From Candidatus Saccharimonadota bacterium (GTDB lineage Bacteria; Patescibacteriota; Saccharimonadia; Saccharimonadales; Saccharimonadaceae): a stretch of 47,768 nt of DNA. The stretch lies in contig JAFRLS010000036.1 of the NCBI GenBank assembly GCA_017431105.1, forward strand, positions 66,594 to 114,361. Direction: 5' to 3'. The notes below the pieces were generated by a model. That model had not been told where the DNA came from. It did not search any database and saw only the letters and a program-made list of their open reading frames with translations. Position 1 is the stretch's first letter, and every line of letters starts with the position of its first letter. The position numbers were made by a program, and so were the translations under genes. This document shows positions 434-47,618 of this stretch, piece by piece.

Positions 434-835
434 ATGTCATTACAATCTACTGATCAAATTGCCGACCTCGTGACTCGCATCCGCAATGCGGTACTAGTTG
501 GCAAGACTGAAATCCTCGTTCCTACTTCAAAATTGAAGCAAGCAATCGTAGAGATTTTAGTAAAAAATGGTTATATTGCTTCTTACAAAATAGAAGAAGC
601 TTCACCAAGAGGTCTTCTCCATGTTGTGATTACGGAACCAGGAACCGTTGCGAAAATCAACGAGATCGCTAAGGTTTCTAAGCCAGGTCGTCGTGTGTAC
701 TCATCATCGGCAGACTTGCCAGTAATTAAGTCTGGTCGTGGTACTGTAATTGTGTCAACCTCGAAGGGTTTGATGACTGGTCGCGAAGCTAAGAGAAATG
801 GTCTTGGTGGCGAAATTTTAGTTCGTGTTTGGTAA
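434..835 (+). CDS. rpsH: Ribosomal protein uS8
   Basis: A 133-residue uS8, which binds the central domain of 16S rRNA. The N-terminal motif DQIADLVTRIRNA and the C-terminal block STSKGLMTGREAKRNGLGGE are diagnostic, and the length is normal. GAAAGGAG sits 6 bases before the ATG. In most bacteria rplF follows immediately; here a hairpin terminator and two surface protein genes (994-7807) intervene before rplF. Confidence 0.96.
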   Translation: MSLQSTDQIADLVTRIRNAVLVGKTEILVPTSKLKQAIVEILVKNGYIASYKIEEASPRGLLHVVITEPGTVAKINEIAKVSKPGRRVYSSSADLPVIKSGRGTVIVSTSKGLMTGREAKRNGLGGEILVRVW

Positions 836-968: not shown

Positions 969-993
969 TATTTATGTAAAAGTGGAGGAAAAA

Positions 994-3168
994 ATGGCAA
1001 AACATAAAGTGGCTTATGTTGGCTCAGCGCTAGCTGTGGTCCTAGGATCGGGGCTTTTAGCTTCAACTGGCGCATACGCTGATGTCGATACCTGTGTCTC
1101 TGCTGGGGCGTTGGCGACGGAGGGCTTCGTCGCGAATGCAGCAGAACTTGAGTACGTCATCCAGAGCGGCATAGCCGAGATTAAAATTGCAGAGGATTTT
1201 GCGATTAATTGTCAACCAAGCATTATGACAAATAGTTTGAAGATTGACCTTAATGGTAAATCTGTGGCAGCAAATGCAGATTGGGCACTCGATCTTGAGA
1301 CTGCCGGTAAAACCTTAACCATTGAAGATAGTGGCGATGGTGGTAGGATTGATTTTAATAATAAAGGGATCTGGATTGAAGGCGGCGCGAACTTAACTAT
1401 CAACTCTGGCATTATTAGCGTGGCTGAAGGTGTTGGTAGAGGCATTGTGTTTAGAGATGGTACGTTGACACTTGCTGGTGGTACAGTTACTGCCAACAAT
1501 GGTGTGTCGGAAGTTGCTGCTGATGGGACGGAATATTATTACCCGACGATCATAGCGTTGAAAGATGGCGCTAGGCCAAATATCGTAATTTCTGGTACCG
1601 AAATCATTGCTGCCAACGGTACAGCTTTGTCTGTAATTGATGGCACCGTAGCCATGACAGATGGTAGAATTACCGGTGGTAATGTTGGCGTGAATCTTGA
1701 CGATGGTGCAGAATTTACCATGAGCGGTGGCGATATTACGGCAAGTACATGGGTAGTTTCAGCCTATAATGACACAACATTCACTATGGATGGTGGTACA
1801 ATTACGACTACTGGTCCAGACAGTATTGGTGTATCTGGCAATGGTACTGCCGATCCAGCAAAGGGTAATTATGGTGGTAATGCTAGATTTAACTTGAACG
1901 GTGGTACGATTACGTCGAATGATCTTGGTGTCTATGCTCCACAAGTTGGTGGTGTAACTACTCTAGGTAGTAATTTGATTATCAATGCCACTAAATGTGG
2001 CGTAGAAGTACGTGCTGGTACTCTGAACGTGAATGGTGCTACTATTACGGTAGATGAAAATATTGATCCAATATTTAATCCAAACGGTAATGGTTCTACG
2101 GCTGAAGGTGTGGCTATTGCTGTAGCTCAACATACTACCGAACAGCCAATTGATGTAACAATTGGTGGTGGCGTTTTTACGGCCCCAATTGCGTTTGGCG
2201 AATCTAATCCACAGAAAAATGACGGGACGGCTGTCGATCAAATTACTTTGGCAATTCATGGTGGTACTTTTAATGCTACAAATGGCGATCCGGTGGTGGC
2301 CAGTGAAGATGTAGAGAAATTTATTGATGGTGGCGCTTTTAATAAATATGTAGAAACTAAATATATCGCGGATGGTTATAGGGCTAATTCGGTTTCTAAC
2401 GGCGCAACGTACGTAGTTTTACCGATTTCTAATACTGCCACCACAGATGATACTGGTGGCGAAAATGCTGATGAAAACCAGGAAGAACTCAATAGTGTAG
2501 CTCAGGATGTACTTGGCGCACTTTATAATAATTATAACGATTTAGTCGGTGATGAGCCTGTAGAGCTTACTTCTGATACTGGTACAAAGTTCTTGATTGA
2601 GCACCCAGAAGCTGCACGAGCGGCGTTAGAAAATGGACACACTATAGTTATGGCTTTGGATGGTCATGAAATTGACATAGATAGTTTAGGTGATGAAGAG
2701 AAGGCGGAGCTTGAAGCGATGCTTGAGAGTGGTATGGTGCCGTTCGGTTTACTTGACTACTGGATTGATTTAAATGAGACTGATGGAATTAGCTCTGGCA
2801 GTTGGCTTGGTGTAGTAACGGAGACTCCGAATGCCATAGAGTTTACCTATGATGTATCTATGGCTCCAGAATTGCCGGAAGGCATCACTCGTATTTGGAA
2901 AGTGATTCGTGTTCACGGGAATGATGTGGATATACTTGATGCGGAATATGATCCAGAAACGAAACTTGTATCATTTTTGAGTGATAAGTTTTCGGCTTTC
3001 GTGATTACATATACTGATATTGCTACCGCTCCATACACTGGTACGATGACTGTAATGGGGGCATCTGTGGTAAGCGCTTCACTTGCTACCGCAATCTCGA
3101 TTGGCGTGGTTACTTCAATCTTTAGCTTCATAGTTTTAGCAAGAAAACTTTACGCTAAGAAAGATTAG
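994..3168 (+). CDS. Sortase-anchored surface protein with beta-helix-like repeats (PYTG signal)
   Basis: A 724-residue exported protein. ATG 994 is chosen over the in-frame GTG at 982 because GTGGAGG is the ribosome binding site. Residues 1-29 are a signal peptide with probable cleavage at AYA|D. Residues about 60-480 contain many short G-G-T-I-T/DGGTIT-type turns spaced like the coils of a right-handed parallel beta-helix. After a spacer come an Asp/Glu-rich segment and a strand ending SDKFSAFVITYTD, then A-PYTG (680-683), a hydrophobic helix and a basic KLYAKKD tail: a complete cell-wall sorting signal. The next gene (3362-7807) has the same head and tail, so they are tandem relatives. Anchoring by the sortase at 46627 is inferred. 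Adhesion is likely but not proven. Confidence 0.85.
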   Translation: MAKHKVAYVGSALAVVLGSGLLASTGAYADVDTCVSAGALATEGFVANAAELEYVIQSGIAEIKIAEDFAINCQPSIMTNSLKIDLNGKSVAANADWALDLETAGKTLTIEDSGDGGRIDFNNKGIWIEGGANLTINSGIISVAEGVGRGIVFRDGTLTLAGGTVTANNGVSEVAADGTEYYYPTIIALKDGARPNIVISGTEIIAANGTALSVIDGTVAMTDGRITGGNVGVNLDDGAEFTMSGGDITASTWVVSAYNDTTFTMDGGTITTTGPDSIGVSGNGTADPAKGNYGGNARFNLNGGTITSNDLGVYAPQVGGVTTLGSNLIINATKCGVEVRAGTLNVNGATITVDENIDPIFNPNGNGSTAEGVAIAVAQHTTEQPIDVTIGGGVFTAPIAFGESNPQKNDGTAVDQITLAIHGGTFNATNGDPVVASEDVEKFIDGGAFNKYVETKYIADGYRANSVSNGATYVVLPISNTATTDDTGGENADENQEELNSVAQDVLGALYNNYNDLVGDEPVELTSDTGTKFLIEHPEAARAALENGHTIVMALDGHEIDIDSLGDEEKAELEAMLESGMVPFGLLDYWIDLNETDGISSGSWLGVVTETPNAIEFTYDVSMAPELPEGITRIWKVIRVHGNDVDILDAEYDPETKLVSFLSDKFSAFVITYTDIATAPYTGTMTVMGASVVSASLATAISIGVVTSIFSFIVLARKLYAKKD

Positions 3169-3170
3169 AA

Positions 3171-3199
3171 TTGACAATTTGCATAAAATATGTTATACT
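3171..3199 (+). promoter_or_regulatory. Near-consensus promoter placed before a terminator
   Basis: TTGACA (3171-3176), exactly 17 bases, TATACT (3194-3199), with TGT as an extended -10. It is among the best sigma-70-type matches in the window. It begins 3 bases after the stop of the first surface gene and points at the hairpin at 3214, so its transcript would be stopped after about 35-40 bases unless read through. Confidence 0.7.
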
Positions 3200-3361: not shown

Positions 3362-6300
3362 ATGAATATAAAACTAAAATTTAAGCGGACGAGCTACATT
3401 GCGTCGGCATTAATTTTAATGCTCACAATGGTGCCAATTGTGCCAAGTAGTAGGACATATGCGGACGAATTACCAAGTTGTGCATCCGACGAAGCAACGT
3501 TGGTATCGTTAATGGCAAGCGCAGATAGTTTTAGCCTTTGCGACGACATTACAAAAACCAGTGTAGTAATTTCGAAAAATCTAGAAATTGATTTGGGCGG
3601 TCATACACTCTATAGCAAAGTATATATTAGTGAAGGAAACGTTGTTAGTATTCATGATGGCACGATTGACGCATCAGTAATTACTGACAATGCAGTGTTA
3701 AATAAAGGCACTTTGACGCTCACGAACGTAGACGTTGTGGCTATGGGTGGCCAAATGGCTGTAACTGGTAGTGGTGTTACGACTTTGGTTGGTGGTAGCT
3801 ATAGCAACAATGGAAGCTATGTGCTAAAGGCGAGTGGTGCTGGATATATAGTAGTAAAATCTGGTACAGTGAATGGTGGTTTAATTGGTGATGTTAGGGT
3901 TGAGGGTGGTATTTATACGGTTGATCCTTCTGCTAATGTTATGGTTGGTTACGCGGCTTATAAAAATGGTAGCAATTGGCGTGTGGAGACTAAATTGACA
4001 GATGGAGCGGGTGGTAATTTTAAATTTAATGTGAGCGAAATTAGAATTAAAGAAGGACAAATTTTATCGCTTGATGAAATCTCGGATTTGATTGATAGGC
4101 CGGCAGATTCTACGACTGGTTTAGCTTATTATGCTAATCCATCTGCAGGTGTGGCAGATATAAATTATAGTGGTAGAAATGCTAAGGGTACTGGCTTATT
4201 GGGGTTAAAAGAGGGCACAGTGAATTTTACTGTGCGCCCACTCTATGATACGAGCCTTAGGACTGATGCGCGTGTGATAGTCGAGTCTGGTTTGGTTGGG
4301 ATTAATGTTGATGATATTGCGGTCCTGCAAGAAGGCACCGCGCGTAAGGCTATTTCCAATGTGTATGATGGATCTGTGGCTTATCCGGAATATGTGACCG
4401 GTGTTACTTATGAAGTTGATACTACTAGCTTAGTTGATGGTTTAGAAGCGAGAATTAGTACTGCCGGTGATGAGTTGGTTGTTACCACTGGTAGAAATGC
4501 AAAGATTGCAGCTGGCGATTACACTGTAAGAGTAAAAGCTTTGAAAAATGGCGTAGATACCAATCTCTACAAAGACGTAAATGTAAGTGTAGGCGATGTG
4601 TTCACTGGATTTACAATAGAACAGGCAACTGATACAACGATTACTTTGGCTGAGAATGAGACGCTCGATTTAACATTATCTGATGCACAGACAATGGGTG
4701 ATATAATTGGCGTAGCTATTACGGATATTGCTGGCTCAAGTGACGTAGTGAGCGTAAGCGGTACTTCTTTAGTTGGCAATAAAAATGGTGCTGGCTCATC
4801 AAGCTATGAAATTACCGCTACTTATACAAGTGACAATGGTCACACTTATGATGTGAAACAAGTTTATACGGTAGAAGTAACTTCGGCCTTGCGTGCTATT
4901 GGCGTGCGTAATGCTGACGACAATGATTATTCTGGGCCGCGTTATGGTAATGAATCTGGTGAGACTGAGTTAACGATGAGTAATGGTGACGCTGCTGAAT
5001 TAAAAATTACAAAAGATTCTTATGATGCAGGTGTACGTAGTTATGAAGTGACTTCTGCCGACACTACGATTGCAGATGTTTCTTACAACGATGCGACTGG
5101 TGAATTTATCGTTCATGGTAGGAGTGTTGGTACGACAACTATTACAGCAACAGCGGCTCCAAGAGGTTTAACTATTCCAGTGAGCAAGACTTTTACGGTG
5201 GTAGTGGAACCAGTATTTGTATCATTTAATATTGATAGTCCATCAATTAGCCTGCTTGAGGGCGATACGATTCAAATTGGCGTGAATAATATCCAAGAAG
5301 CTGGAGTCGAGGATGCAATTAGTTGGAGCTATAGCGATTATGATAGTTCTATAGTTAGCATAAATACTGATGGCGTAGTAAATGGCTTAATGGCTGGTAC
5401 GACTAATTTCAAAGTGTCTGGTACTTTTACTACTCCAATGGGTCGCATAATTACGATTGAACGTCAAGGCACGATTGAGGTGTTACCGTTGCTTCGTTCA
5501 ATTACGACTGCAGAAAAATATTTTGTGGAGCTTGGCAGTGAAGAGGATTTAGCTATTACAGTTGATGATGCAAGAGTGACTCCTACGTACACTTACATTT
5601 CAGATAACGAGTCTGTAGCCGTGGTGGTAGATGGTAAAATCCAAACTCGTGGTGGCGGCAAGGCTACGATTACAATTAGTGCTACGAATAATGGTGTGAC
5701 GGTTTCTACGACTACGGACGTGTATGTTTATAAATACGCTACAGACGCGGAAGATAAATATTATACTGCTATTGGTGGCCAGGCTATAGAATTCAATATG
5801 AGTGAGGCCTACAATCAGGATTCAGTGTCTTGTAAAATTAGTGGTAATGATTGCGCAGGTGATCAAAACTTGAGTGTAGTGAAGGATGCTGATGGTAACT
5901 ATACGATTACTGCTAAAGCTGGTGCGAGGGCAAATACGTATCATTTGACTTTCACGGATAAAGTAGATGAAAGAACGATTGCCACTAAAAATATTGATAT
6001 TCATGTACACGAAGTATTAATTTCGGATGCAAGTGATAAATATCTGAAAGTGGGTGATGATTCAGCACGTATTACGGTGCGTGAAGCTAATGGCAATACT
6101 GGTCATGGCAGTATTATTTATAGGATTTACGACGTAGCTACCGGCAGTGAATCGGATGGAGTGACGGTCTCTAGACGTTCAAATAACTATACTTTGCGAG
6201 CTGCTAGAGCTGGACAGTATGAAATAAGATTTATCAATGTGGCGAGTTCTGGCGAGGAGGTAACTTCAAAGTCAGTGATGGTTTATGCGATAGACTTTAC

Positions 6301-7807
6301 GGTTAATGATACCGAATATTATATTACCGTAGACGACCATGAGCCGAAATTAGTTACGACGCTTAATGAATATTGGAACGAAACTTGGAAAGAAGATACT
6401 ACTGGATTTAAGATTACTAAAGATTCTGATACCGAATACTATTTCTGGCCGACTACAGCTGGTGCTGGCAACTATACATTAAGGTTTACTGCTTTAGTGA
6501 ATGGGGAAGTGAGAGACACTAAGTCTGTAATAGTACATGTCTATAAGATGGTGGCACCAACCGAAACCACTTATTATGGCCGAGTTGGAAGTACTTTTAA
6601 TGTGCGCGTGGCAGACGAAAATAGAGACGCTTACACTACGGCTGAAGTAATCGAAGGTAGTTCAGATGGATTGATGTTGATGAGGAATCCGCTAAATGGT
6701 CGCTTATTTAGCAATATGGTAGTGGCGCGTAATGCAGGTGAATATCGGGTGCGTTACGAAGATCATATGGCAAATGGTGCGGTAGCTGGTACATATGAAG
6801 CAAAATTTGTCATCATCAATGTTGTAGAAGAAACCTTATTGGTGGCTCAAGGTGATAAGATTGAGATTTCAGATAATGGTGATTATACTGTAAGCTTTGC
6901 TGAAGATGAAACTAGGAACGTGGAGCTAGAGATTAAGGACGGTAAAGCTGTATTTGATAGCGTAAATGTTCAACCTGGTAGATATAATGTTTCAATTATG
7001 CATGATTTTGAAGATGGTGCACGTGAAGTTATAAAAGAGACCACTGTAATAGTTTATAAGATTTCGGCTGATGGTAGCGATTTAACTGGTGTCACCGCGG
7101 ATACGGTAAAGAAATATCTTGAAGATTTGATGGCAAATGGTCGCATAGAAGATTTAATAGATGATAATGGAATTCTGTCGTTCTTTAGACTTTTGAATCT
7201 GTTAGGTGATGCCGATACTCAAGAAATCTTTGGCGATTATTTCGAAGGGTATGGTAGCTTAACTGGTCTTCGTGATGCATTGAACGATGGTGATGAGGTC
7301 ATTACTAAGATTGAAGTGAACGAAATTAATGATACTGTATCTGATGAAGATAAAGAAGCGATTTTAGGGGCGCTTGATGGTCTTGATGTGGCTCACGTAG
7401 GCTACTATGATGTGTCGGTATTGATGCAAGTGAATGGTGTAACAATTGGTAATTTACATAAATTGAGCGACAAAGCTGTCGTGGCTTTAGCCCTAACAGA
7501 AGACCCAGAGACTGGATATCTTCGTCAATATTTCGTTGTGCGCAAGCACAACGGCGAAGAAGCCGAACTATTAGAAGAAGGCGTAGATTTCTATATTGGT
7601 AGTGATGGTTGGATTTACGTTTTGTCTGATAGATTCTCGACTTTTGCAGTAGCCTATACGGACACCGTAGCTCCGGAGACTCCGGATACCGGCGTAAACA
7701 CCAATATTGAAGTTGGTGCGGCCCAAAGCACAATTGTGACTTCTATTATGATTATAATTTCTATTGTGACTTTGGCTGGTGCAGTAAAGTTTGCCAAAAA
7801 GCATTAA
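3362..7807 (+). CDS. Giant sortase-anchored surface protein with Ig-like repeats (PDTG signal)
   Basis: 1481 residues. A basic N-terminus and hydrophobic stretch end in TYA|DE, a signal peptide. Residues about 35-210 repeat the head of the neighbouring surface protein (short Cys-containing segment, then IDLGGHTL and beta-helix-like turns). Residues about 350-800 hold several Big_2-like Ig folds with the typical VSxxG-VxG-xxGTTxIT pattern. Residues about 800-1190 hold four or five further repeats, each starting with a YY/KY-type strand and ending AGxYxLRF...KSVxVxVY. The C-terminus has DRFSTFAVAYTD, T-PDTG (1441-1444), a membrane helix and KFAKKH. This makes a long, stalk-like wall-anchored protein, probably an adhesin. 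SD GGAGG lies about 10 bases before ATG 3362. A terminator follows at 7815. Confidence 0.87.
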   Translation: MNIKLKFKRTSYIASALILMLTMVPIVPSSRTYADELPSCASDEATLVSLMASADSFSLCDDITKTSVVISKNLEIDLGGHTLYSKVYISEGNVVSIHDGTIDASVITDNAVLNKGTLTLTNVDVVAMGGQMAVTGSGVTTLVGGSYSNNGSYVLKASGAGYIVVKSGTVNGGLIGDVRVEGGIYTVDPSANVMVGYAAYKNGSNWRVETKLTDGAGGNFKFNVSEIRIKEGQILSLDEISDLIDRPADSTTGLAYYANPSAGVADINYSGRNAKGTGLLGLKEGTVNFTVRPLYDTSLRTDARVIVESGLVGINVDDIAVLQEGTARKAISNVYDGSVAYPEYVTGVTYEVDTTSLVDGLEARISTAGDELVVTTGRNAKIAAGDYTVRVKALKNGVDTNLYKDVNVSVGDVFTGFTIEQATDTTITLAENETLDLTLSDAQTMGDIIGVAITDIAGSSDVVSVSGTSLVGNKNGAGSSSYEITATYTSDNGHTYDVKQVYTVEVTSALRAIGVRNADDNDYSGPRYGNESGETELTMSNGDAAELKITKDSYDAGVRSYEVTSADTTIADVSYNDATGEFIVHGRSVGTTTITATAAPRGLTIPVSKTFTVVVEPVFVSFNIDSPSISLLEGDTIQIGVNNIQEAGVEDAISWSYSDYDSSIVSINTDGVVNGLMAGTTNFKVSGTFTTPMGRIITIERQGTIEVLPLLRSITTAEKYFVELGSEEDLAITVDDARVTPTYTYISDNESVAVVVDGKIQTRGGGKATITISATNNGVTVSTTTDVYVYKYATDAEDKYYTAIGGQAIEFNMSEAYNQDSVSCKISGNDCAGDQNLSVVKDADGNYTITAKAGARANTYHLTFTDKVDERTIATKNIDIHVHEVLISDASDKYLKVGDDSARITVREANGNTGHGSIIYRIYDVATGSESDGVTVSRRSNNYTLRAARAGQYEIRFINVASSGEEVTSKSVMVYAIDFTVNDTEYYITVDDHEPKLVTTLNEYWNETWKEDTTGFKITKDSDTEYYFWPTTAGAGNYTLRFTALVNGEVRDTKSVIVHVYKMVAPTETTYYGRVGSTFNVRVADENRDAYTTAEVIEGSSDGLMLMRNPLNGRLFSNMVVARNAGEYRVRYEDHMANGAVAGTYEAKFVIINVVEETLLVAQGDKIEISDNGDYTVSFAEDETRNVELEIKDGKAVFDSVNVQPGRYNVSIMHDFEDGAREVIKETTVIVYKISADGSDLTGVTADTVKKYLEDLMANGRIEDLIDDNGILSFFRLLNLLGDADTQEIFGDYFEGYGSLTGLRDALNDGDEVITKIEVNEINDTVSDEDKEAILGALDGLDVAHVGYYDVSVLMQVNGVTIGNLHKLSDKAVVALALTEDPETGYLRQYFVVRKHNGEEAELLEEGVDFYIGSDGWIYVLSDRFSTFAVAYTDTVAPETPDTGVNTNIEVGAAQSTIVTSIMIIISIVTLAGAVKFAKKH

Positions 7808-7814
7808 CCAGAAT

Positions 7815-7853
7815 CGAAAAAGTAAAGGGGTGATGCTCTTTACTTTTTCGTAT
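7815..7853 (+). terminator. Terminator after second surface gene, overlapping rplF promoter
   Basis: Perfect 13-bp inverted repeat, CGAAAAAGTAAAG (7815-7827) and CTTTACTTTTTCG (7838-7850). The 3' arm contains the TTTACT -35 element of the next promoter. The T tract lies inside the arm, so termination strength is uncertain. Confidence 0.65.
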
Positions 7854-7897: not shown

Positions 7898-8434
7898 ATG
7901 AGTCGTATCGGAAAACAACCCATCGAAATTCCGGCGGGAGTGACAATTACGGTCGGCGACAAAGAGATTACTGTCGCAGGCCCAAAGGGTCAACTCATCG
8001 TCCCGGTGCAGCCGAATACCACTACAAAGGTAGAAGGCACTCAGGCGATTGTCACCCGTAAGGATGACGAGCCAAAATCTCGAGCTTGGCATGGACTCCA
8101 GCGCGCGCTTCTTAATAACGCCGTTGTTGGCGTGACCAAGGGGTACGAGAAAAAACTAGAAATTAACGGTGTAGGTTTCCGTCTATCGGGCGGTGGACAA
8201 GAAATCGAAATGGCACTTGGTTTTTCACATCCAGTGAAATACAAAGCTCCAGAAGGCGTCCAACTTACTACTAATAAAATGGAAATCACAGTGAGTGGTA
8301 TCGATAAACAGAAAGTCGGTCAAGTTGCCGCTGAAATCCGTAGCCTTAAGAAGCCAGAACCATATAAGGGTAAAGGCATTAAGTATGTGGATGAAGTAAT
8401 CATTCGTAAGGCTGGAAAGGCAGGGAAGAAATAA
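7898..8434 (+). CDS. rplF: Ribosomal protein uL6
   Basis: 178 residues starting [15 protein letters not shown], the family N-terminus. The start at 7898 is preferred over an in-frame upstream ATG at 7856, which lies in the promoter. The conserved C-terminal block [16 protein letters not shown] is present. uL6 sits near the base of the L7/L12 stalk and the sarcin-ricin loop. The stop codon overlaps the rplR start by one base (TAATG), indicating translational coupling. Confidence 0.96.
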
Positions 8435-45221: not shown

Positions 45222-46649
45222 ATGCATTTCAAGACGATTTTCAAATCCTTAAAGAACAAAGACATGCTGAAAAGAGTGGGTATTATATTTGGTATTTTAA
45301 TAGCGTATAGGCTGCTAGCGCAAATACCAGTGCCGATGGGTGATGCTTCTACTTTTAAAGAAGCCGTGTCGAATTTGATGGAGAAATCGGATTTTTCAAA
45401 TTTCCTAAATTTGATTTCTGGTGGTGGTTTGGCATCATTTAGTATTATTTTGGTCGGTCTCTCGCCGTATATTACGGGTTCTATTGTGATACAACTTTTA
45501 ACTAAAGCAATTCCGTCACTTGAGGAGCTCTCCAATGATGGTGAATCCGGTAGGAGGAAAATTAACCAATGGACAAGAATGTTGACTGTTCCATTGGCGA
45601 TAGTGCAATCAATTGCTTATATATTTATTCTGTATCAGTCTACGGTTTCGGCTAATATCGCTTCTGATTTTACGCCAACGATGGGCGATTGGGCTTTGTC
45701 TGTAGTAGCAATGACGGCTGGTTCGGTTATATTGATGTGGCTTGGCGAGCTAATTACTGAGCAGGGTATCGGTAATGGTATTTCTACTTTGATTTTTGCT
45801 TCAATTATTTCACAGTTGCCAACTACGATGGCCTCACTTGGCACTGCGTTGTTTGATACCAGCGACGGAGCTTTGAATTTATTTGGTTGGTTAGAATTGC
45901 CGGTGAACCCAGTAGTATTTTGGATCATTCTCGGGTTTGCGGTTGCGATGCTGGTGGTAATTTACTTCCTAGTTAAGATAAATGAAGCACAGAGAATAGT
46001 TACGATTAACTATGCTAAACGCGTGCATGGTAATTCGTCTTATGGTGGGATTAAATCGATATTACCAATTAAACTTATTGCGGCAGGTGTGGTGCCAGTG
46101 ATTTTTGCGACAGCGTTCCTTTCTTTGCCGGCTTTAGTTGGTCAAGTAATCACTTCGGTTAACCCTGGTAATGAGTTCGGCGAATCGCTAGTTACAATAT
46201 TCTCGGCTCCTTCGGCAAATAACTTTGCGTCAATGTATCCAGATGGTATTACTGGGCGATGGTTTGTTTATCCAGCATTTTACTTTGTGTTAGTATTTGC
46301 ATTTACGTATTTCTATACCTCGATTATTTTCAATACAAAAGAGATTGCCGATAATCTACAAAAACAAGGTGGTTTTATTGAAGGCGTGAGGCCTGGTATC
46401 AAAACGGCTGAATACCTCGGCAAGGTCGTGAATCGCTTGAATCTATTTGGCGCTTTGGCACTAGGTTTGATTGCGATGTTGCCATTCATTACGGATTATA
46501 TATTTATTATAATTACGGGTGCTCCGATTGGCCTTTCAATCTCGGGTACTGGGCTTTTGATTGTGGTGACGGTGGCGTTAGAGAATCTCAGGTCGGTGGA
46601 TTCCCGGGCTCTAATGATAACTTACGATGATTTCCAAAATGAGTCTTAG
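45222..46649 (+). CDS. secY: Preprotein translocase subunit SecY
   Basis: 475 residues. ATG 45222 follows AAGAGG; the frame is open upstream to 45126 but that region is the terminator and promoter. Ten hydrophobic helices with the SecY blocks IAYRLLAQIPVPMG, GLSPYITGSIVIQLL (helix 2), GELITEQGIGNGIS (helix 5), NYAKRVHGNSSYGG (cytoplasmic loop), and FIEGVRPGIKTAEYL (loop 8/9). It forms the Sec channel that must export the surface proteins of this window. adk and map, the usual next genes, are absent; a sortase gene overlaps its end instead. Confidence 0.96.
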   Translation: MHFKTIFKSLKNKDMLKRVGIIFGILIAYRLLAQIPVPMGDASTFKEAVSNLMEKSDFSNFLNLISGGGLASFSIILVGLSPYITGSIVIQLLTKAIPSLEELSNDGESGRRKINQWTRMLTVPLAIVQSIAYIFILYQSTVSANIASDFTPTMGDWALSVVAMTAGSVILMWLGELITEQGIGNGISTLIFASIISQLPTTMASLGTALFDTSDGALNLFGWLELPVNPVVFWIILGFAVAMLVVIYFLVKINEAQRIVTINYAKRVHGNSSYGGIKSILPIKLIAAGVVPVIFATAFLSLPALVGQVITSVNPGNEFGESLVTIFSAPSANNFASMYPDGITGRWFVYPAFYFVLVFAFTYFYTSIIFNTKEIADNLQKQGGFIEGVRPGIKTAEYLGKVVNRLNLFGALALGLIAMLPFITDYIFIIITGAPIGLSISGTGLLIVVTVALENLRSVDSRALMITYDDFQNES

Positions 46650-47334
46650 GCTTAATGTGGGTTGGAAACAAATTGTAAAGTGGGTGGCGATAGCCATAGC
46701 GGCGATTTTATTGGCGGTGTTCTTTATAAGAGTAGCCTTGTGGGAAGGTTCATATTATCGTGAAAAAGAGGGTAGCGAAAGGGATGTTATTGCGGCTCAG
46801 CAGGAGGAAGAGGAAGAGGAATTAATAGAAGTAGAGCCGACCGAGGAAGAGGTAGTAGAATATGTCGTACCACCAGACCATCCTAGATATCTCACAATTG
46901 AAACATTGGGGATTTATAATGCAAGAATAATCCCGATGGGGGTGGGGGCGTATGGCGAACTAGATACGCCGAATAATATTTTTGATGTGGGTTGGTATGA
47001 GTCGTCTGGTATGCCTGGACAAGGCAAGACTATGTTGATAGATGGGCATAATGGTGGGCCACACGTGCACGGCGTTTTTAAAAATTTACCAGATTTGGGG
47101 AATGGTGATATTATAACGGTTGAGCGGGGCGATGGTTTAATCTATAGATATTCTGTAGTAGAAAATTATGAAATACCGATTGATGAGTCTGATTCGTATA
47201 TGTCTACCGCTATGCGTTCGCCGGAGGCTGGGAAAGAATCGATAACCTTGATTACTTGTTCGGGTGAATGGTCACAAGTGCAAGGAACCTATATGGCTAG
47301 ACAGTTTGTTCGAGCAGTGTTGGTTAGTGCTTAA
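46627..47334 (+). CDS. Sortase (transpeptidase) overlapping secY
   Basis: 235 residues from ATG 46627; ATG 46639 (MSLRLN) gives a shorter overlap of 11 bases and is equally likely. One N-terminal membrane helix (about 18-36), a Glu-rich linker (about 50-78), then the sortase barrel with the catalytic His in LIDGHNGGPHV, the catalytic Cys in LITCSGEW and the Arg in ARQFVRAV. It should cleave a PxTG-type signal between T and G and attach the protein to the wall. The two surface proteins at 994 and 3362 carry PYTG and PDTG signals. Class (E/F-like) is not certain. Translation is coupled to secY. Confidence 0.92.
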   Translation: MISKMSLRLNVGWKQIVKWVAIAIAAILLAVFFIRVALWEGSYYREKEGSERDVIAAQQEEEEEELIEVEPTEEEVVEYVVPPDHPRYLTIETLGIYNARIIPMGVGAYGELDTPNNIFDVGWYESSGMPGQGKTMLIDGHNGGPHVHGVFKNLPDLGNGDIITVERGDGLIYRYSVVENYEIPIDESDSYMSTAMRSPEAGKESITLITCSGEWSQVQGTYMARQFVRAVLVSA

Positions 47335-47351
47335 AATTTTTATTTTTACCC

Positions 47352-47380
47352 TTTACAAACTCTATTTTTCGTGATAAAAT
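47352..47380 (+). promoter_or_regulatory. Promoter of infA
   Basis: TTTACA (47352-47357), 17 bases, TGA-TAAAAT (47375-47380); ATG at 47394 gives a leader of about 7 bases. Confidence 0.7.
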
Positions 47381-47393
47381 GGGCTGGTAATTT

Positions 47394-47618
47394 ATGGCTA
47401 GTCAAAAGGAAGTGATTAAGCTCACAGGCACTGTTGTTGAGGCATTGCCAAATACCCAGTTTCGGGTTGAACTCGAGAATGGTCATGTTATTGTTGCCCA
47501 CATGAGCGGACGCATGCGAAAAAACTATATTCGTTTGGTTCCGGGTGACAGAGTCGAAGTTGAGTTAACCCCTTACGATCTTACAAAGGGCAGAATCAGC
47601 TTTAGGCTCAAGGATTAA
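47394..47618 (+). CDS. infA: Translation initiation factor IF-1
   Basis: 74 residues, full length, an S1-like OB fold: [58 protein letters not shown]. It binds the ribosomal A site during initiation. ATG 47394 lies 13 bases after the -10 with no SD, so the message is close to leaderless. infA-rpmJ is the normal order at the end of the spc block. Confidence 0.96.

Follow-up and report, generated by a model that had tools for sequence, protein, structure and literature searches.

A class F-like sortase gene overlapping secY in Candidatus Nanosyncoccus

At one end of a stretch of 47,768 nucleotides of a Saccharibacteria genome, hereafter the window, the gene of the SecY channel runs into the gene of a sortase; near the other end, two large surface proteins with sorting signals are encoded among ribosomal protein genes. 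Is the sortase tied to the channel, and are these two proteins the ones that it anchors?

The source genome has 880 kb in 43 contigs (completeness 95.4, contamination 7.7) and belongs to the genus Ca. Nanosyncoccus, its closest named relative being Ca. Nanosyncoccus alces (NZ_PRLM01000001.1). The named relatives are mostly rumen or gut genomes, and the genomes compared here are for the most part metagenome bins. The ribosomal cluster of the window comes in two parts, with about 35 kb of other genes between them: rpsH, the two surface proteins, rplF, rpsE and rplO stand at its start, and rpoB-rpoC-secY-sortase-infA at its end (Table 1).

The sortase and its overlap with secY

The protein encoded after secY is a member of the sortase family, with a score of 63.8 bits against PF04203, whose cut-off is 26.6. 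The best of the class models is NF033748, for class F, but the score of 71.8 bits lies far below the cut-off of 166, and we therefore call the enzyme class F-like only. An AlphaFold model computed with 26 sequences (mean pLDDT 81.6, mostly above 90 in the domain) has a single long helix at the N-terminus and the barrel of a sortase. Foldseek matches it to sortases of classes D, C, E and A, with E-values from 1e-8 to 1e-10; the best matches are 4d70 (3.7e-10), 2xwg and 9iok, at 1e-9 to 1e-10. The His-Cys-Arg triad, here H141, C211 and R225, is invariant in Nanosyncoccus. The enzyme is thus predicted to be catalytically active, and its basic N-terminus should leave the catalytic domain outside: the product would be a single-pass membrane sortase held by its N-terminal helix.

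An earlier note on this DNA had the sortase begin 11 to 23 bases before the end of secY, and both start codons are indeed present: the ATG at 46627 gives an overlap of 23 bases, and the ATG at 46639 an overlap of 11. Only the second is regularly kept among relatives, in the context aATGAG(T/C)(C/T)TT, while the first is often missing; the start at 46639 is therefore the most likely one, and 46627 was dropped. Of 69 distinct Nanosyncoccus loci, 57 have the sortase start 11, 17 or 20 bases before the secY end, and 61–62 show an overlap, of 1 to 23 bases (one pair directly abuts). In the remaining loci and in other genera, including the sister genus g32, the sortase starts 1 to 4 bases inside secY or after a short gap.

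A stop/start overlap conserved in 61 of 69 loci is what one looks for in a translationally coupled pair. The sequence before 46639 holds no clear Shine-Dalgarno motif, which agrees with a start by reinitiation without proving it. The two genes very likely share one message, translation of the sortase may well be coupled to that of secY by reinitiation, and co-production of the two proteins is supported. Ribosomes finishing secY would go on to make the sortase and, given the overlap and the highly probable common transcript, the output of the enzyme would stay in step with that of the channel. An accessory SecY2 system was considered for this channel and rejected: TIGR00967, the SecY equivalog model, far outscores the SecY2 models with its 337 bits.

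The reading that we favour, at slightly better than an even chance, is that an active membrane sortase, coupled to the sole SecY of the cell, anchors proteins with PDTG or PYTG signals as they are exported. Probably inserted near SecY, the enzyme would cleave signals of this type and fix surface proteins to the wall on their exit from the sole Sec channel; we infer both its nearness to SecY and its match with these substrates.

Table 1. Features of the window, with positions counted from its first nucleotide
Feature	Position	Strand	Basis
rpsH, upstream border of the surface-protein insertion	434..835	+	
Surface protein A: signal peptide, C-terminal APYTG sorting signal (motif 3031-3042)	982..3168	+	
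Promoter-like TTGACA-17-TATACT before surface protein B	3171..3199	+	consensus match only
Surface protein B: signal peptide, Big_2 Ig-like repeats (weak), C-terminal TPDTG signal (motif 7682-7693)	3362..7807	+	
Terminator-like hairpin after surface protein B, 15 pairs	7815..7850	+	
rplF, downstream border of the surface-protein insertion	7898..8434	+	
secY (ATG at 45222), only SecY gene found in the genome	45222..46649	+	TIGR00967 337 bits, above cut-off; single match in own genome
Class F-like sortase, 231 aa from the conserved ATG	46639..47334	+	PF04203, NF033748, fold model, start-codon conservation
Overlap of secY end and sortase start, 11 bases	46639..46649	+	sequence; 61/69 distinct Nanosyncoccus loci overlap
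Catalytic His codon, H141 (numbered from 46627)	47047..47049	+	class-member alignment; invariant in genus
Catalytic Cys codon, C211 (numbered from 46627)	47257..47259	+	class-member alignment; invariant in genus
Catalytic Arg codon, R225 (numbered from 46627)	47299..47301	+	class-member alignment; invariant in genus
Promoter-like site before infA	47352-47380		consensus scan
infA, next gene after the sortase	47394..47618	+	blast of relatives

The secY-infA junction in relatives

The synteny search that the earlier note proposed finds the sortase beside secY in 29 of 30 loci of the genus, where a contig end truncates the one exception, and in each of the 42 named loci. Within the family, 37 genomes from 17 sister genera are divided: a sortase-fold gene lies between secY and infA in 18 of them, and is absent in 19. 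Outside the family, 18 loci sampled from 16 others of the order have infA after secY, in nearly all cases with nothing sizeable between them and never with a sortase; class F-like sortases of more distant families sit away from secY.

These loci also correct the expectation that adk and map usually lie after secY. The order secY-adk-map was found neither among close relatives nor in the 18 loci of the 16 other families, and the adk gene of the window genome is on another contig (C41). Since the other families read secY-infA without adk-map, the sortase was added to this junction and did not replace adk-map. The combination that the earlier note held to be damaging, secY-adk-map in close relatives and the sortase elsewhere, is found in its second half, in the distant families with class F-like sortases at other sites; its first half was not seen.

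On the SecY tree, the presence of the sortase at the junction requires at least four changes. In the sortase tree, 26 of 28 secY-linked copies stand apart from the class F-like sortases found elsewhere in the order, and the secY-linked copies of genera g37 and g42 are placed outside the main group, a position of weak support. The sortase tree suits a single relocation to secY within one family, a reading that g37 and g42 weaken. A class F-like sortase would have moved between secY and infA, and become coupled to secY in one family of Saccharibacteria, once or a few times. The SecY of one g42 genome (G226, L057) stands out in its tree by a branch of 3.05, very long and far in excess of those of its relatives.

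Relatives have further genes at this junction: one for a sigma-70 region 4 protein (L061:4547-5449), others for membrane proteins of unassigned function in g29 and g35 (L040:4534-5673, L050:5152-6132) and, in g28 (L039), one of 314 aa behind the sortase. Given these unrelated genes, the position of the sortase next to secY may be incidental: the junction would tolerate insertions in compact genomes, and the overlap would be a by-product of tight packing, with no link to SecY. The 19 sister-genus genomes whose gap has no sortase speak in the same direction. However, the sortase is never seen lost or replaced in Nanosyncoccus, and an overlap of 11 to 20 bases is kept in the 57 loci counted above despite the fast evolution of the gene, whose identity in the genus is 45–70% versus 70–92% for secY. 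We consider mere hitchhiking possible and, on balance, unlikely.

The catalytic residues tell a second story. All Nanosyncoccus copies keep the triad; the catalytic Cys is lost in 12 of the 18 secY-linked copies of sister genera, with F, S, P, Y, V, T, A or N in its place. The change is to F in G132, S in G163 and T in G211, and it comes with a second one in G193 (P, with His to Tyr), G186 (Y, with Arg to Ser) and G169 (V, with His to Tyr). All six g32 genomes have lost His, Cys and Arg; the triad is intact in six sister-genus genomes (G116, G128, G197, G158, G175 and G226). The dead copies have open frames of normal length, retain the membrane helix and still abut secY. In their only close pair, G167 and G173 (triad-less, 95% identity), dN/dS is 0.083, versus 0.032 for secY, and because of this value at least one dead copy, judging from one pair, is maintained by purifying selection.

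Loss of catalytic residues is also seen repeatedly in sortases of the order that do not adjoin secY. Locus L180:767-2673 (G048:C63) has class F-like sortases in tandem, one with an intact triad and one with Cys changed to Phe and His to Tyr; similar Cys-less copies are found in L185, L187, L188 and L190.

The position adjacent to secY may therefore serve more than the activity of an enzyme. Triad-less copies could be kept there because the protein has a non-catalytic role at SecY, such as binding or shielding emerging chains, with catalysis an ancestral extra that Nanosyncoccus retained. Repeated loss of the Cys by different substitutions, loss of the whole triad in g32, the retained frames and helices beside secY and the low dN/dS are what this account predicts. 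On the other hand, the dN/dS value is that of one close pair, the triad present in all Nanosyncoccus copies argues for catalysis there, and the dead genes of the five loci above indicate that loss is not tied to the site. We find this account improbable. Rather doubtful, too, is a version in which the sortase-fold protein coupled to the sole SecY is a translocon partner acting on chains that leave SecYEG, active in Nanosyncoccus and a selected, non-catalytic “pseudo-sortase” in the sister genera. A search of the open-access literature found no description of inactive sortases under selection.

Sorting signals, surface genes and other sortases

The PYTG and PDTG proteins reported by the earlier note in the spc block are there, between rpsH and rplF. 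Both have a signal peptide and, like other proteins of the genome, a C-terminal PxTG motif with a hydrophobic stretch and a positive tail: protein A ends in APYTG-TM-AKKD and protein B in TPDTG-TM-AKKH, so that the L of LPXTG is not kept. One claim made about them fails, and another is unsupported. They were said to share the ribosomal locus of the sortase, but lie 39–43 kb upstream of it in a split cluster, and not in the same operon; and they were taken as its likely substrates, but the genome encodes at least 13 detectable proteins with P[DY]TG sorting signals, spread over several contigs, and they are two of these. The signal is C-terminal in 10 of the 13 and internal in 3.

The genome-wide search was made by DNA pattern and covered two motifs, P[DY]TG and P[QKE]TG. 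Codons for the first have 20 matches, versus 9 for the backward pattern; P[QKE]TG has 31, and no sorting signal was found among the 30 that were read. PETG signals occur in relatives at rpsH-rplF. Proteins A and B have in common a C-terminal domain that none of the other proteins of the genome was found to share. In three proteins (L197:2939-4822, G000:C36; L265:2598-4547, G000:C41; L266:3684-6854, G000:C43), the PDTG/PYTG-TM-basic signal is near the N-terminus or in the middle, and the same reading frame goes on to encode another membrane helix and then a large region outside the cell. A cut at such a signal would anchor no more than a short N-terminal fragment, or leave the remainder held by its own helix.

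In seven relatives with rpsH close to rplF, the gap encodes one or two large surface proteins, most of which carry PxTG at the end; in the other sampled families the two genes are adjacent. Part of Nanosyncoccus thus favours this gap as a place for surface genes. In one g32 genome (G171), the gap holds a thymidylate synthase gene after rpsH (L267:7047-8012); between rplO and secY, the same genome encodes a surface protein of more than 1370 aa with VWA and DUF285 domains (L267:12891-17000), in which no C-terminal sorting signal was found.

The inserted surface genes, in the window as in relatives, are bordered by hairpins resembling terminators and by sites resembling promoters, all consensus matches. 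Joint expression with the ribosomal genes, secY and the sortase is therefore doubtful, and the surface genes look like separate transcription units. Clustering of substrates with the secY-sortase pair was rejected, since a search of about 700 kb around it in the 42 named relatives yielded no sorting-signal protein. The earlier note had proposed a module of channel, anchoring enzyme and substrates built into the ribosomal locus: what survives is the co-production of SecY and the sortase, and what does not is a self-contained module. Proteins A and B would still be likely clients, two of many, with their own expression.

The earlier note would have been refuted by several other sortases with better matched substrates. 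Other sortases do exist besides the secY-coupled enzyme, one or two in the window genome, of about 410 aa and class C/E-like, and they could serve the same signals. They (L001:1372-2586 and L002:1369-2598) lie on contigs C27 and C36, are close in the tree, and each stands beside a homologous gene; the neighbour is a membrane protein, PEGA-like by eye, and one contig has an integrase-like frame. They are possibly one core sortase seen twice in a mixed bin, given the contamination value above. A sortase of about 400 aa exists in nearly all genomes of the genus and family, even where the secY-linked copy is dead or absent. Genomes with a dead copy carry more sortases than those with an intact one (Mann-Whitney p 0.009, relatedness uncorrected), which fits a transfer of anchoring to other sortases.

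The core sortase could then be the one that anchors the PDTG/PYTG proteins, leaving the secY-coupled enzyme with a narrow or different client. Its near-universal presence favours this, but the signals, in a weak comparison at the level of patterns, follow the intact secY-linked copy: across 14 other Nanosyncoccus genomes, P[DY]TG codons number 141 and the backward control 87, while the six g32 genomes, which have a core sortase too, give 46 and 54 (Fisher p 0.011 between genera). At that same level, the counts agree with g32 having lost catalysis and clients together. This division of labour seems to us rather unlikely, and we keep the secY-coupled sortase as the enzyme that would anchor these proteins.

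Comparison with known systems

With class F sortases, as described by NF033748, the window enzyme shares a short length, an N-terminal membrane helix and the TLxTC and Arg motifs; it differs by its place in a secY operon and by a presumed recognition of PDTG/PYTG-like signals. SrtE of Thermobifida fusca (9iok), SrtD of C. perfringens (4d70) and SrtC-1 of Actinomyces oris (2xwg) have the same barrel and triad, at 20–24% identity. To our knowledge, no class E, D or C sortase is encoded with secY.

Sortases of the CPR family fam000526 are reported in more than half of CPR genomes, and we found there no mention of a tie to secY or of lost catalytic residues (PMC6744442). In the open-access literature searched on secY-sortase operons and on Saccharibacteria sortases, we found no account of the present arrangement, which bears on how these episymbionts build the surface that touches their host. 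A parallel is the secY operon of C. diphtheriae, which reads secY-adk-mapA-sialidase DIP0543-erfK DIP0544-infA (PMC524172). It has adk and map, a sialidase and an ErfK-type protein in place of a sortase, and no reported overlap with secY; as in Nanosyncoccus, a ribosomal operon includes genes that modify the surface or the wall, placed after secY and before infA.
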